Part shown: piece after piece, positions 17,555 to 39,437 of the stretch
Numbering within the stretch: position 1 is the stretch's first letter
Layout of the letters: each line of letters opens with the position of its first letter
NCBI GenBank assembly: GCA_017475235.1
Contig: JAFVGA010000020.1
Location: 1-64,000, forward strand
Reading direction: 5' to 3'
Source: Eubacterium sp.
Lineage (GTDB): Bacteria; Bacillota; Clostridia; Lachnospirales; Lachnospiraceae
Length of the DNA: 64,000 nucleotides
Position numbers and translations under genes: made by a program
Notes under the pieces: generated by a model
Told to the model about the DNA's origin: nothing
Database searches by the model: none
Seen by the model: only the letters and a program-made list of their open reading frames with translations

Positions 17555-17613
17555 AAAAGAAAAACAATAAACAGCTCACTAACAATCGTTCGCATGTTTA
17601 TTGTTTTTCTTTT
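17555..17613 (-). terminator. Conserved-loop hairpin A, after psd
   Basis: A perfect 19-bp stem (17555-17573 with 17595-17613) has an A-rich left and T-rich right arm and a 21-nt loop. On the minus strand the loop contains GAACGATTGTTAGTGA, shared with hairpins at 25703 and 38050. It directly follows the psd stop and so probably ends the phospholipid operon. Confidence 0.75.
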
Positions 17614-24102: not shown

Positions 24103-24810
24103 CTATTTGTTCTTATTAACAATCTTTGTCTCGTAATCGCCAGTTGCTATGTCGATGTATCTAACAAACAAACTTACCTTATTGTCTCCATTTAAGTTGT
24201 CCCAAAGTTTCTCTGTGAACTCATCAATACCGTCTAGCATCTCCACCAATGTTGGCTCTCCCTCAAAACTTGGAAGTGGATTTCCATCGTGCTTGTAAGT
24301 GTGGATAAATCTTCCCTCACCTGCTATTGGATTATCGTAACTAAATGTGTATCTATCGCAGCAATCTGGGTTTCCATTGTTGCTCTTTAAGATAGACATC
24401 TCATAAGAAAACTTTCCATTTTCCACATGCATAACACCTGAAATTCTTGGTGTGTAGTTTGGTGCATCTGGCTCAAACTCTCTTGTGCGTAGTGCTTCTT
24501 CAAATGTTTTTCCTTCTGCCATCAAGTCATAAACTGTATCAGTCTGATCACCGTTTGTCACGATTGTGTCGTTATCTCTAACTCTAACTGGTGCATAAAT
24601 GATTAGACTTGGATCTTCTAGTTTTGCTGGGTCATGTGCTTCAGTTCTTATTCCTTCGCCGTCTTCCACGAAGACTCTGTTTCTAGAGTTCTCACTACGT
24701 CCCATAATAAAATATCCAGTGATTGCTTTTGTTCCATCAGGTGATGTTCCAATAACAATTCCTCTTCCTGGATATGCGTTACTTGCGACTTCGTCGAATA
24801 ATGATTTCAT
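24103..24810 (-). CDS. purO: PurO-type IMP cyclohydrolase
   Basis: The protein closes FAICAR to IMP, the last purine step. The 235 residues resemble the archaeal-type PurO family (PF07826): ASNAYPGRGIVIG at the start, ITGYFIMGRSENSRNR, and the PRISGVMH region. The start at 24810 has GGAGG 9 nt upstream. The frame stays open further upstream, but there it overlaps the ZTP aptamer, so those codons are not coding. It works with the transformylase encoded next to replace bifunctional PurH. Confidence 0.88.
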   Translation of the reverse strand: MKSLFDEVASNAYPGRGIVIGTSPDGTKAITGYFIMGRSENSRNRVFVEDGEGIRTEAHDPAKLEDPSLIIYAPVRVRDNDTIVTNGDQTDTVYDLMAEGKTFEEALRTREFEPDAPNYTPRISGVMHVENGKFSYEMSILKSNNGNPDCCDRYTFSYDNPIAGEGRFIHTYKHDGNPLPSFEGEPTLVEMLDGIDEFTEKLWDNLNGDNKVSLFVRYIDIATGDYETKIVNKNK

Positions 24811-24834
24811 GTTTTTCCCTCCAAATTTGCGCAG

Positions 24835-24947
24835 AAAAAGACCGCCCGGGCTTTTTCTCCTTCTTTCTTCTTTGCCCAGGCGGTCGACTTCAATTTCTCC
24901 GTGCTCCCTCGTGGTTTTTCTCCACTTATCCGCCAGTCGCACGGAAC
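24835..24947 (-). ncRNA. ZTP (pfl) riboswitch with intrinsic terminator, upstream of purO
   Basis: On the minus strand, P1/P2 pairs CCGTGC with GCACGG around ACTGGCG, an inner hairpin GTGG...CCAC and GGGAGC. After a short linker comes CCGCCTGGGCA (to about 24873), the conserved ZTP pseudoknot segment. This segment is also the 5' arm of a 12-bp hairpin (24840-24851 with 24874-24885) followed by TTTTT. Ligand binding should therefore stop terminator formation and turn purO-purH on when ZMP/ZTP accumulates. Confidence 0.9.
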
Positions 24948-24959
24948 TTCTGTACCTTT

Positions 24960-25039: not shown

Positions 25040-25657
25040 TTAGTCCTCATAAATAGGCTCAAAATCTTCCTTTGGATGCCCACACATTGGACATTTGTAG
25101 TCGTCTGGCATCTCTGCTTCTTTGTACACATATCCACAAATTTTACATCTCCAACCAACGATCTTTTTGTCAGTTTTTACTTCCTGTTTAGGCTTAACAT
25201 TTGCGTGATAATCTGCGTATGTTAGTGGCGCATTTTCGCTTAACACTTTCATATCATCAATCTCTGCAATAAACATTGTGTGGCTTCCGAGATCCATACT
25301 GTCTACTACTTTGCCGGAGATGACTGCGCACGCTTGATATCCAAGATAAGGATTTCCATTCACATCAAGCTGAGGTGTCAAACTCTCAAACTTATCCACG
25401 TCTCTTCCAGACTGGAATCCAAAATGACTGATAGTCTCAAATGTACAAGTCTGATCCAAAAGAGTTAGCGCAAAAGTTCCACTCTCCTTAATCAACTCAC
25501 AAGTATAGTTTGCATTAATACAGCAAATCGCAATTCGATCTGGGTTAGATGCTACCTGCATTGCTGTGTTTGTAATGCAAGCGTTCATCTTATCCCCAGC
25601 AGTTGTACCAAGTACAAAAACTCCATAACTTAATTTGTATAACGCTTTGTTATCCAT
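25040..25657 (-). CDS. Flavin reductase-like / rubredoxin fusion (high-molecular-weight rubredoxin)
   Basis: The 205-residue protein joins an FMN-binding split-barrel domain (1 to about 155; KLSYGVFVLGT, GFQSGRDVDKF) to a C-terminal rubredoxin (about 168-205). The rubredoxin has two knuckles, CKICG and CPMCG, binding one iron. Similar fusions in anaerobes carry electrons to flavodiiron oxygen or NO reductases. The start at 25657 has GGAGG 8 nt upstream; the ATG two codons earlier is too close to it. It stands alone, 93 bp downstream of the VWA gene and separated from it by hairpin B. Confidence 0.88.
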   Translation of the reverse strand: MDNKALYKLSYGVFVLGTTAGDKMNACITNTAMQVASNPDRIAICCINANYTCELIKESGTFALTLLDQTCTFETISHFGFQSGRDVDKFESLTPQLDVNGNPYLGYQACAVISGKVVDSMDLGSHTMFIAEIDDMKVLSENAPLTYADYHANVKPKQEVKTDKKIVGWRCKICGYVYKEAEMPDDYKCPMCGHPKEDFEPIYED

Positions 25658-25702
25658 ATTCATTTCCTCCGTTCGTTTACTGAATCCATTATAACATATT
25701 GT

Positions 25703-25764
25703 GGAGACAAAAAATAATAGGGGTGGAACGATTGTTAGTGACACCCCTATTATTTTTTGTCTCC
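25703..25764. terminator. Conserved-loop hairpin B, at the end of the VWA gene
   Basis: A perfect 23-bp inverted repeat (25703-25725 with 25742-25764) overlaps the last codons of the VWA gene. The plus-strand loop is exactly GAACGATTGTTAGTGA. GGGGTG/CACCCC at the loop end and a T-rich distal arm are terminator-like on either strand. The loop matches hairpins at 17555 and 38050 although the stems differ. Confidence 0.75.
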
Positions 25765-26955
25765 CATTAATTTTTTTATTCCTTGTTTCAATCCATCAAC
25801 TGTCAATGGATACATATCAATCTGTTCTCTAATTAATCTTTCTGATTCCATCCAATACGAAGTGCTCGACAAATCTCCGTGGAACGATGGGTTTAACCAT
25901 ATGGAATTTGGGTATCTCTGCTTAAACCACTTAATCCACTCATTACCTGATAGTCCATTATTAGGTCCTGAGTAGTTTCCGTTTTTATCTAGGAATTCTT
26001 CTGGAGCCATTCCAGCGTCTCCCACTATGATTACTTTATAATCCTTGCCATAATTTTTGAATGCCCACGTTGTATCAATCCAATCTCCACTTATGCACTC
26101 TGGACTCTTATAGAGTTTTGCGTAAATACAATTGTGGAAATAGTAAGTCTTAACATCCTTAAAATGATTTGCCTTATCCACCGCCTGGAATAGTTCATTA
26201 CAAAGCGATGAGTATGGATACATCGATCCACCACTATCGAACAACAACATAAGCTTAACTGAGTTCTTTCTAGGCTGTTCAAACTCCAATTTCAAATATC
26301 CACCTTGATTACATGTGGAGTCAACCGTCTTATCTATATCAAGTTCTGTCTTTGGCAAATCCATCTTCCTGGAATACTGCTTGAGTTGTCTGAACGCAAC
26401 TTGGAATTGTCTCATAGTGAGTTTTTTATCTTGTCTAAAGTCTTTGTATCTTCTCTCGCCGAGTACGGCAAAGGCAGTTTTCATTCCAGCCTTATCTCCT
26501 AGCTGAATACCTCCAGCCACGTGACCATTTTTACCAAACTCAGAGCCACCACCAGTTCCAATCCAATAGTTTCCTCCATTGTGCTCTGTGTGCTGCTCAC
26601 CAATACGCTCTCTAAACATGCGGTGCACTTCTTTGGCCTCGCGTTTAGTACGCATATCGCGATACATTTCTGGATTTGTCATCTTTGCGTCTTTTTCGTC
26701 GTTGTGAAGCCATTTGTTTATCTCATCTAGGTTTATCTTGTTTTCTTTTATGTTTTTAAAATACTCTAAAAATGCGCTGTCTAGTTTGTCGTAGTCGGCT
26801 TCAGATTTAATTAGAACTGCGCGACAAAGATAATAAAAGTCAGTAAAATTAGAATGCGCAAGATCTTGGTCTAGCGCATCCATAAGACTCAACCACTCAG
26901 TAGTTGAGACATTTATTCCATTATCTTTTAATGTGTAGAAAAAACCTGAAAACAT
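25750..26955 (-). CDS. CoxE-like VWA-domain protein
   Basis: The 401-residue cytosolic protein has a C-terminal von Willebrand A domain with a MIDAS-like start LLFDSGGSMYPY. The third motif position is Gly instead of Ser, as in several CoxE-type proteins. The N-terminal half is helical and charged. Its ATG follows the MoxR stop with no gap. MoxR AAA+ ATPases with VWA partners act as chaperone pairs that insert metals or remodel enzymes. The client here is not shown by the neighbourhood. Confidence 0.85.
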   Translation of the reverse strand: MFSGFFYTLKDNGINVSTTEWLSLMDALDQDLAHSNFTDFYYLCRAVLIKSEADYDKLDSAFLEYFKNIKENKINLDEINKWLHNDEKDAKMTNPEMYRDMRTKREAKEVHRMFRERIGEQHTEHNGGNYWIGTGGGSEFGKNGHVAGGIQLGDKAGMKTAFAVLGERRYKDFRQDKKLTMRQFQVAFRQLKQYSRKMDLPKTELDIDKTVDSTCNQGGYLKLEFEQPRKNSVKLMLLFDSGGSMYPYSSLCNELFQAVDKANHFKDVKTYYFHNCIYAKLYKSPECISGDWIDTTWAFKNYGKDYKVIIVGDAGMAPEEFLDKNGNYSGPNNGLSGNEWIKWFKQRYPNSIWLNPSFHGDLSSTSYWMESERLIREQIDMYPLTVDGLKQGIKKLMGDKK

Positions 26956-37668: not shown

Positions 37669-38037
37669 ATGCAGAGCAACGAATCACAAGAAATGTATTT
37701 AGAGACTATATTAGTCCTCGGCAAAGAAAAAGAACACGTGCGCTCAGTGGATGTGGCAAACGATCTAGGCTTTAAAAAGTCTAGTGTCAGCGTTGGCATG
37801 AAACATTTGCGTGAGAAAAAATATATAGAGGTTGATGAGAAGGGTTATATCACTCTCACTCCTGCCGGCAAAGAGATTGCAGAAATGATTTATGAACGCC
37901 ATCAGTTCTTGTCAGAGTACTTGATGAAGATTGGAGTTCCGGAAGACATCGCTGTAGACGACGCATGTAAGATTGAACACGTAATCAGTCAAGAAAGTTT
38001 TGAAGCATTAAAGAAACGCGTTAAGAAACTCAAATAA
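37669..38037 (+). CDS. DtxR/IdeR-type iron-dependent repressor, short form
   Basis: The 122-residue metalloregulator has a winged helix (about 1-62) and a dimerisation domain, lacking the C-terminal SH3 domain of DtxR and so as short as MntR. The metal residues, however, look like DtxR rather than MntR: Met9 (MntR has Asp) and Cys100-x2-Glu103-His104 (MntR has Glu first), with His78. This favours iron sensing. It is divergent from feoA, with palindromes between them. The ribosome site GGAAGAGG precedes the ATG. Confidence 0.88.
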   Translation: MQSNESQEMYLETILVLGKEKEHVRSVDVANDLGFKKSSVSVGMKHLREKKYIEVDEKGYITLTPAGKEIAEMIYERHQFLSEYLMKIGVPEDIAVDDACKIEHVISQESFEALKKRVKKLK

Positions 38038-38049
38038 TAATATTGAAGA

Positions 38050-38116
38050 CAAAAAAAGAAAAGTATAAAGGTAACGAACGATTTTAAGTGAGTACCTTTA
38101 TACTTTTCTTTTTTTG
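38050..38116. terminator. Conserved-loop hairpin C, between convergent regulator and GH16 genes
   Basis: A 24-bp perfect stem (38050-38073 with 38093-38116) has a 19-nt plus-strand loop containing CGAACGATTTTAAGTGAG. A-run left and T-run right allow termination on both strands. The loop matches hairpins at 17555 and 25703. Confidence 0.8.
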
Positions 38117-38123
38117 AAAATAA

Positions 38124-39437
38124 TTATTTATTTAATTTGTTAATATCTATTTCTTTAACTGCTCCATACAAATACTGGCCATCGTCCATTATAGTGTAAG
38201 GTCTTACGTAGTACTTTGCTTTGGCGTGCTTCTTTAGGCCATCTTCAAAAATCATATCTGTATTGAAGTAAGTAGCCGAAGTATGTTTTTGAAGTTCAAG
38301 GTTTTCAATGTCCTCTTCTTCGTTTTGGAATACTTTAACATAGCCTTTGTCGTTGTCTACATTTAAGTCATCGGCAGTTATTCCAGTATCATCCGTTCCC
38401 TTAAAACTTTTGAGTCCAAGAATTATTCCGTTCGTTGAAATAGTATGTCCATTAATATTTGGCTCCACGTAAGATCTAATTCGAACTGCTGCGTCCTTCT
38501 TATTAAACTGAATAGCGAACGTGTCTAGCTTGTCACTCTCGACAATCTTTCTAAGGGCAGGCTTTGTGTAGGACTTGTCTTTGTTTTCATAGACGCGGAC
38601 ATAGTCAACATACATAGTTGCGTCTTTGAAATTTTTCTTCGGTCCAGTAAATCCAGTATAGCCAGTCTGATCACTTCCAATCGCAAGATTGAGCAAGAAA
38701 TAATGCTGCTTTCTGAAAGCGGCTGCGTTACTGTCCCTTATGTCTGCTGAGAAGTAAATGTGGTTATCCACATACCAATCTATATGATTTGCACCCCAAA
38801 CAATTCCGTAGGTGTGCCATGCGTTGATTCCTTTTTTAAGGCCGCCTGGATATTTGTAGACGTGGCCGTTGAACATTCCACTCCACATCATGTTAGAGTC
38901 GTGTGACATCCAGTGAATAGCACCTGAGGCATAGTCCCTGTCGTTTGCATGCTCCATAATGTCTAATTCGCCACATGTAGGCCAAGGCAAGCCATCATTT
39001 CCCATCATCCAAAACGCTGGCCAAACACCACTCTGATTTCCTTTCACAACTTTGAAGCGGGCTTCTATCTTTCCATACTTGAAAGCCTTTTTGTACATTG
39101 TCTTTAAACGACCAGATGTGTAATCTGACATTCCGTAGTGCTGCTTCATCGCGTGAATAATAAGTTTGCCGTTTTTTACACGGACGTTTTCTTTTCTATC
39201 TGTATAAGACTGGAGTTCATTGTTTCCCCAACCAGAATATCCTGTGCCAATATCGTAAGTCCAGTTATCCTCGTTCAACTCCTTGCCGTTAAACTCATCA
39301 CTCCATTTAAGTTTCCAACCTTTGTCGGTTGGGGATAGGTCTTTGGCGTGGACAATAAAAGTAGCGCTGCTTAAAAAGAGCGCTACTAAAATAGATGTAA
39401 TTAACAAATATTTAGTTTTTCTCAAAACTTCTAACAT
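38124..39437 (-). CDS. Secreted GH16 beta-glucanase
   Basis: The family 16 retaining glycoside hydrolase probably cuts beta-1,3 or mixed-linked glucan. The 437 residues have a signal peptide (to about residue 31). The catalytic strand GELDIMEH has nucleophile Glu157, Asp159 and acid/base Glu162, preceded by the conserved GVWPAFWMMG. The GH16 fold ends near 275, followed by about 160 residues of unknown fold. It directly follows a membrane protein gene with no gap. Confidence 0.92.
   Translation of the reverse strand: MLEVLRKTKYLLITSILVALFLSSATFIVHAKDLSPTDKGWKLKWSDEFNGKELNEDNWTYDIGTGYSGWGNNELQSYTDRKENVRVKNGKLIIHAMKQHYGMSDYTSGRLKTMYKKAFKYGKIEARFKVVKGNQSGVWPAFWMMGNDGLPWPTCGELDIMEHANDRDYASGAIHWMSHDSNMMWSGMFNGHVYKYPGGLKKGINAWHTYGIVWGANHIDWYVDNHIYFSADIRDSNAAAFRKQHYFLLNLAIGSDQTGYTGFTGPKKNFKDATMYVDYVRVYENKDKSYTKPALRKIVESDKLDTFAIQFNKKDAAVRIRSYVEPNINGHTISTNGIILGLKSFKGTDDTGITADDLNVDNDKGYVKVFQNEEEDIENLELQKHTSATYFNTDMIFEDGLKKHAKAKYYVRPYTIMDDGQYLYGAVKEIDINKLNK

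Follow-up and report, generated by a model that had tools for sequence, protein, structure and literature searches.

Rho-independent terminators that act in both directions consist of an A-tract followed by a hairpin and a T-tract, and they lie at gene ends, often between convergent genes. The hairpins described here have this arrangement and differ in that a conserved, internally paired tip of 16–18 nt is carried on otherwise differing stems. ERIC, RUP and BOX-type repeats and MITEs, for their part, are intergenic palindromic repeats. The version of our hairpin found in Eubacterium ramulus resembles them as a longer intergenic palindrome with inverted ends, whereas conservation among the Lachnospira copies was seen in the tip and the A-tract only, and not in the flanks.

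The REP/REPIN elements with RAYT (TnpAREP) are likewise dispersed intergenic palindromes, some of them with bulged stems, and, according to the available part of the source (PMC3733652), a REP family is assigned from its stem, its loop and a GTAG or CGTC tag. The stems of the tip hairpins, in contrast, vary freely between sites and covary. Moreover, the Y1 transposase family PF01797 had no match in the eight genomes of the clade (G000, to which the analysed DNA belongs, G001, G003, G011, G016, G018, G020 and G021; 59–96% complete), and the assignment to REP/RAYT was rejected on these grounds. The DNA uptake signals of Neisseria and Pasteurellaceae are similar to our family in that a conserved word recurs in terminators; in the portion of the source available, complementary copies of the uptake word form the hairpin, and there are generally 1,000 or more copies (PMC1852404). 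An uptake word was also rejected, as G000 holds 26 hairpins and the word is located in the loop rather than in the stem.

The accessible text of PMC8794818 attributes three patterns to template switching, namely inverted loops, several compensatory changes at once and the lengthening of stems. The tip hairpins share with those cases the inversion of loops, multi-base compensatory change and stem extension; the cases in that text lie in rRNA and other RNA genes, whereas here a genome-wide family with a preserved tip is concerned. The literature searched, mostly at abstract level, contained no publication on the tip-hairpin family and none on a factor that reads the folded tips of terminators or cruciforms.

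Hairpins of the window and their copies in Lachnospira

The window is the whole stretch of 64,000 nucleotides that was analysed. It forms the beginning (64 kb) of contig C17 in the genome G000 (1.45 Mb, 26 contigs, 76% complete). The scan for inverted repeats with a perfect stem of at least 10 bp and a loop of 3–30 nt revealed 19 of them, and only three have a loop with GAACGATT[GT]T[TA]AGTGA. These are the hairpins indicated by the earlier note, and both their coordinates and their perfect outer stems of 19, 23 and 24 bp were confirmed (Table 1). The loops of the other 16 are 3–14 nt long and lack the GAACGATT..AGTGA word, and the matches to the loop word with two mismatches elsewhere in the window lie outside the 19 inverted repeats. 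The statement of the earlier note that the loops of the other terminators are short and unrelated is correct. The remarks made there on strand also agree with the gene calls: the loop at 17555 is on the minus strand like both neighbours, the loop at 38050 is on the plus strand like the MntR-like gene, and the loop at 25703 is opposite to both of its neighbours.

Table 1. Tip hairpins of the window with their arms, tips and adjoining genes (positions in the window).
Feature	Position	Strand	Description
Hairpin 1	17555..17613	-	perfect 19-bp outer arms, 17555-17573 and 17595-17613
Hairpin 1, interior			one bulged base (17594), two inner pairs, then the tip
Hairpin 1, tip	17576..17591	-	GAACGATTGTTAGTGA; sense relative to both neighbouring genes
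Hairpin 2	25703..25764	+	perfect 23-bp arms, 25703-25725 and 25742-25764; without bulge
Hairpin 2, tip	25726..25741	+	GAACGATTGTTAGTGA; antisense to both neighbouring genes
VWA/CoxE-like gene	25750-26955	-	3' end forms part of an arm of Hairpin 2
Hairpin 3	38050..38116	+	perfect 24-bp arms, 38050-38073 and 38093-38116
Hairpin 3, interior			bulged A 38074, inner pair C38075-G38092, then the tip
Hairpin 3, tip	38076..38091	+	GAACGATTTTAAGTGA
Hairpin 3, setting			flanked by two convergent genes, MntR-like (37669-38037, plus) and GH16-like (38124-39437, minus)

On the minus strand, the final 15 bases of the VWA/CoxE-like gene, with its stop codon, form the beginning of the upstream arm of Hairpin 2, and the arm away from this gene is the reverse complement of those 15 coding bases. 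The flavin-reductase/rubredoxin-like ORF 25040-25744 (minus strand) has a mechanical GTG start that passes through the same hairpin; a likelier start is an ATG near 25660 with GGAGG ahead of it. A ZMP/ZTP riboswitch (59.9 bits) is present at 24867-24950 on the minus strand, at the start of an IMP-cyclohydrolase-like gene, and overlaps the mechanical start of ORF 24103-24942, the true start of which is probably further in. This riboswitch, located away from the hairpins, was the only Rfam match in the window at gathering score, and L235 and six further loci (seven loci) gave none. The permissive Rfam scan of 25680-25790 returned 43 sub-gathering matches, many of them to miRNA precursors, the best reaching 30.8 bits against the 76 required.

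The exact word ACGATTNTNAGTGA occurs 20 times in the 1.45 Mb of G000 and not at all when read backwards, and its abundance is far beyond chance. With up to two mismatches allowed (variants AAACG..GTGC and others), 26 hairpins were found in G000, and 116 family sites were counted across G000 and its seven sister genomes (118 collected, two with at least three mismatches removed), a number that under-counts decayed and differing tips because sites were located by the tip. The tip patterns cover the named forms only, and G021 and G016 show that further forms exist. The sister genomes are titled as MAGs or uncultured isolates, and several of them are incomplete. The earlier note had named a genome-wide search for further copies as a check on the family; the search gave many more copies, and since all 20 exact copies in G000 lie within long stems, the family stands.

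Within the genus, the exact word is present in 22 copies in each of G020, G003 and G011, nine in G001, six in G018 and two in each of G016 and G021; single copies, neither of them with a hairpin, occur in G017 and G014, and the other 13 of 22 genomes have none. At two places in G000 (L044 and L049; C7:39663 and C19:257), GAAAGATTGTTGGTGA occurs without a hairpin and with alike flanks, perhaps in a duplicated gene segment.

Folding of the tip and position at gene ends

The tip consensus is 5' GARCGA, a short apical loop and (T)AGYGA 3', with the pairs G·A, A·G, R-Y and C-G. Energy folding of the three window hairpins as RNA yielded, on both strands, the outer stem, a two-by-two mismatch, two inner pairs and an eight-base apex, with fold z-scores between -7.8 and -12.9, while folding as DNA retained the inner pairs in one of the two hairpins tried. 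The loop is conserved, as had been claimed, but it is not unstructured, since it contains two internal pairs and a tandem G·A and is usually accompanied by a single bulged base in the 5' arm.

Across the 116 sites, 10 of the 16 tip positions are without any variation, and the inner C-G pair is invariant. Of the 116 standard tips of Lachnospira, 115 have A-U at the inner pair 3-14 and the remaining one has A·C; this pair is G-C in 23 of 24 copies from E. ramulus and G206, another Lachnospiraceae genome, and in two copies from G021. The change from A-U to G-C at this pair favours pairing, and a NusA-type word GAAC..UAG is not claimed. The bulge in the 5' arm was found in 90 of 102 G..A tips, in none of nine A..C tips and in one of four A..A tips, and the single G..G tip has its bulge in the opposite arm. 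A bulge on the 5' side is also present in 21 of 23 variant-tip copies and, as read from the alignments, in all 24 copies from E. ramulus and G206, directly at the tip in two of them. A kink-turn is not claimed either, the single-base bulge being set apart from the G·A pairs.

Covariation was analysed in 23 diverse copies, namely 20 from Lachnospira and three added by hand (two from E. ramulus and one outlying copy from G020). Changes on both sides occurred at 14 of the 16 model pairs, and the covariation score was 0.624, compared with 0.179 ± 0.023 in shuffles and at most 0.275 with partners slid. A covariance model, also suggested in the earlier note, was built and then used for searching genomes. 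The combination described there from three hairpins, i.e., a conserved loop on covarying stems of terminator-like form, is found throughout a dispersed family.

The left-arm positions 14 and 15, counted outward from the tip, are each A in 114 of the 116 sites, and in 106 of them the right arm has its first TTTT starting 10–13 nt past the tip. Based on crude mechanical ORF calls, the setting of the 118 collected sites is convergent in 48, tandem sense in 34, tandem antisense in 22 and divergent in 12, with one neighbour missing in two; by the same crude calls, about 104 of the 118 sites adjoin a gene 3' end, and at about 22 of the 56 tandem sites the strand that carries the G·A lies antisense to its neighbours. 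The flanking proteins are ordinary and mixed (20 proteins scanned). Owing to their covarying stems, the near-fixed distance to the A-tract and their placement at gene ends, the Lachnospira tip hairpins look like two-way intrinsic terminators. This reading is confined mainly to Lachnospira, as the stems of the E. ramulus copies are without the A/T-tract arrangement. The antisense position of the G·A strand at tandem sites would be odd for a role purely at the mRNA level.

The tip could in principle serve in cis as a stability module, that is, a compact fold that is good for a terminator and suits RNA polymerase or NusA without a dedicated partner, having been spread by descent and duplication. 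The near-fixed geometry relative to the A/T-tract, the ability to fold well on either strand, the ordinary neighbours and stems that change no faster than those of ordinary terminators would all agree with this explanation. We nevertheless consider it improbable, because the general transcription machinery is common to all Lachnospiraceae genomes, and yet, of 397 family genomes searched with the pattern of the two tip forms (39 with places), none but G000 (21) and G206 (3) has over two places. Moreover, ordinary terminators of the same window have short unrelated loops, and a second tip type occurs at many sites in G021 and G016, for which a need for stability is not obvious.

Inversion of the tip and inheritance of stems

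Grouping by flanking DNA placed 103 of the 116 sites into 33 clusters. The tip is present in both orientations in 16 of the 33 clusters, with 83 pairs alike and 50 inverted (n = 133), which bears out the earlier suggestion that the element is strand-neutral. The inversion is often found on a nearly unchanged stem. Relative to G000, the tip of Hairpin 2 is inverted in G020, G003 and G011, with nearly the same stem in G020, and the G020 copy is the only one with a bulge at this site. Likewise, G011 and G020 have the tip of Hairpin 3 in the opposite orientation on a stem that is nearly unchanged, and the bulge moves along with the tip.

Perfect inverted repeats can give false loop flips in metagenome assemblies, and the origin of the sister genomes from MAGs or uncultured isolates calls for this to be considered. 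It is a very unlikely source of the inversions. Common reads are longer than the approximately 65 bp of a hairpin, and common assembly k-mers are longer than stems of 20–24 bp. Furthermore, the bulge flips together with the tip, tip types and compensatory changes vary between genomes in order, and the existence of the family is independent of the flips.

Between orthologous sites, the mean identity was 98.8% in the tip (14 positions), a value inflated by the location of sites through their tip, 85% in the 28-nt arms and 80% in the outside flanks, and the 28-nt arms of unrelated sites were 66% identical. Most stems have thus been inherited. Strongly changed stems, with a pair below 75% identity in the inner 20-nt arm (non-orthologous arms: 69%), were found in about nine of the 33 clusters; the ungapped stem count is inflated by indels, e.g., in the 25726 cluster, and was not relied on for stem change. 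One intergenic place compared in six genomes has four differing intact tips and two decayed ones, and only the stems of G021 and G016 are alike. At the aroE 3' site, which was read by eye, the palindrome reaches into an inverted copy of the coding end of the convergent gene, and this copy differs by lineage in step with that gene; G001 and G011 have an ordinary terminator there instead. The 17555 hairpin is without a counterpart at the orthologous place in G020, and the G020 hairpin at C3:213201 is without one in the window. The G003 orthologue (L461) of the G000 site C4:4146 is a decayed tip lacking its left arm, beside a long palindrome with an unrelated loop.

As a control, 11 ordinary terminator-like hairpins of the window were used, eight of which were comparable with G020. 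Their identities between G000 and G020, loops included, were 28/31, 21/34, 26/33, 25/25, 33/36, 23/35, 27/32 and 17/21, in sum 200 of 247 bases (81%), and the inner 20-nt arm of the tip hairpins averages 84% identity over 13 G000–G020 pairs. A faster turnover of stems than in ordinary terminators was rejected on this matched comparison (84% vs 81%), and for this reason the explanation preferred below was weighed lower, and an origin from mobile repeats higher. The tip hairpins stand out by the tip itself, by its flipping and by stems that are now and then replaced in full, the flips having been scored in tip hairpins alone.

We infer that template switching is the probable cause of both the inversion of tips and the replacement of stems. 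The compensatory changes in the fold, the survival of the tip through flips and stem replacement, and the alternative form in one branch suggest, in turn, that the tip is under selection.

Other tip forms, relatives and a possible reader

Tips of the type GAACGACT..TAGTGA were found at 14 places in G021 and seven in G016, against two standard tips in each, and in both genomes this alternative type is the prevailing one at many sites. Among 24 distinct copies from G021, G016 and G011, the stem score was passed by 23, one being weaker; the two matches to the pattern in G000 and G007 have no hairpin.

The same tip architecture is present in the 24 copies from E. ramulus and G206. The palindromic repeat of these genomes, of approximately 165 bp (L340-L359, L235), bears the same tip, and 14 of the 24 copies, chosen as alike, align as a longer intergenic repeat with the inverted ends GGGTGGC..GCCACCC. 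For 12 of the 24 tips, the 3' end of a gene in antisense orientation is 59–73 nt away. L344 and L358, from E. ramulus and G206, lie beside a 97%-identical protein in the same orientation and have one compensatory stem difference. Several neighbour genes are common to E. ramulus and Lachnospira sites, roughly at chance level, and they were not used.

These longer copies suggest that the hairpins might be remnants of mobile palindromic repeats of the MITE, ERIC or REP kind, in which a transposase or nuclease would recognise the tip in single-stranded DNA, termination being a by-product that aids survival at gene ends. HUH transposases read hairpins resembling the bulged tip. The absence of PF01797 matches in the eight incomplete genomes of the Lachnospira clade speaks against such remnants; this family has one match in the E. 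ramulus genome G060 and three partial, stop-codon-containing matches in G206. The mobile cassette envisaged in the earlier note finds partial support in the larger repeat with inverted ends, the patchy distribution (Lachnospira clade, E. ramulus and G206 only) and the presence of certain sites in some sister genomes and their emptiness in another. It does not fit the direct repeats of at least 5 nt, which occur at 5 of 105 Lachnospira sites against 7.1 expected from shuffles, i.e., without an excess that would point to target-site duplication. Nor does it fit the common position of 103 of the 116 sites in several genomes, or the stems, which differ between copies. In the copies from Lachnospira, the base composition up to 26 nt away from the tip showed no terminal inverted repeats. 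Mobile remnants are accordingly a rather unlikely account of the family, and an older mobile origin, suggested by the E. ramulus form, is possible.

Wider searches did not confirm any copy outside the Lachnospira clade, E. ramulus and G206 in the Lachnospiraceae, order and viral samples searched. The scan of named genomes for the 18-nt form gave 68 loci, 60 of them in Lachnospira-type MAGs; of the remaining eight, seven are without a stem, and the stemmed one belongs to Eubacterium ramulus strain 21. The covariance model, with 21 candidates scored per genome, so that weak relatives may escape, had matches in two of 299 family genomes, G000 (21) and G206 (1). The stem check of 29 new loci (L311-L339) among the 53 places listed, which left out nine one-place genomes, found a strong stem in one, from G206. 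One of the 392 genomes searched in the order has the E. ramulus tip form, which is not on a strong stem there. A viral origin was rejected, as none of the 41 and 21 IMG/VR stretches with the word has it in a stem like those of the family (the highest pairing score was 15.0, against a family cut-off of 20). Phage records matched none of the 25 kb compared from the window, and the E. ramulus repeat had no plasmid match and one phage match, located outside the repeat. Near-equal spacing on two contigs, which might have indicated an 8.4-kb element, was a coincidence, blastn having found no shared stretch between the regions.

The explanation we prefer, with a probability of about 0.5, combines two-way termination, a selected folded tip, template-switched flips and stems and, perhaps, a trans-acting reader. 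According to it, hairpins at gene ends in one Lachnospira lineage would act as two-way intrinsic terminators, each bearing a common folded tip. Template switching during replication would flip the tips and extend or replace the stems and, by copying one arm over the other, would keep the stems perfect, while selection would hold the tip. In the least certain step, a trans-acting factor might read the tip as an RNA or as a DNA hairpin or cruciform. As both tip orientations are tolerated, a strand-indifferent reader is favoured; both orientations would be natural for a reader of cruciforms and for terminators between convergent genes, and awkward for a role in mRNA only.

In its strongest form, which is offered tentatively, a genome-wide hairpin-tip code would exist in which a single trans-acting factor, present in two or more lineages of Lachnospiraceae, recognises the folded tip with its tandem G·A and bulge, whichever way it points, at dozens of terminators or cruciforms. 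The specificity of the factor would drift by lineage and the sites would follow, leaving the stems below the tip free to be flipped, extended or replaced through template switching. No candidate for such a factor was identified in this analysis.

Dispersed palindromes are usually known by a conserved stem, while here the tip is kept on stems that vary. This points to the possible existence of a factor that recognises terminators or cruciforms by their folded tips. With its inverted loops, extended stems and arms containing coding ends, compared across sister genomes, the family would also constitute a natural record of template-switch mutation, through which the birth and upkeep of bacterial hairpins become directly testable.
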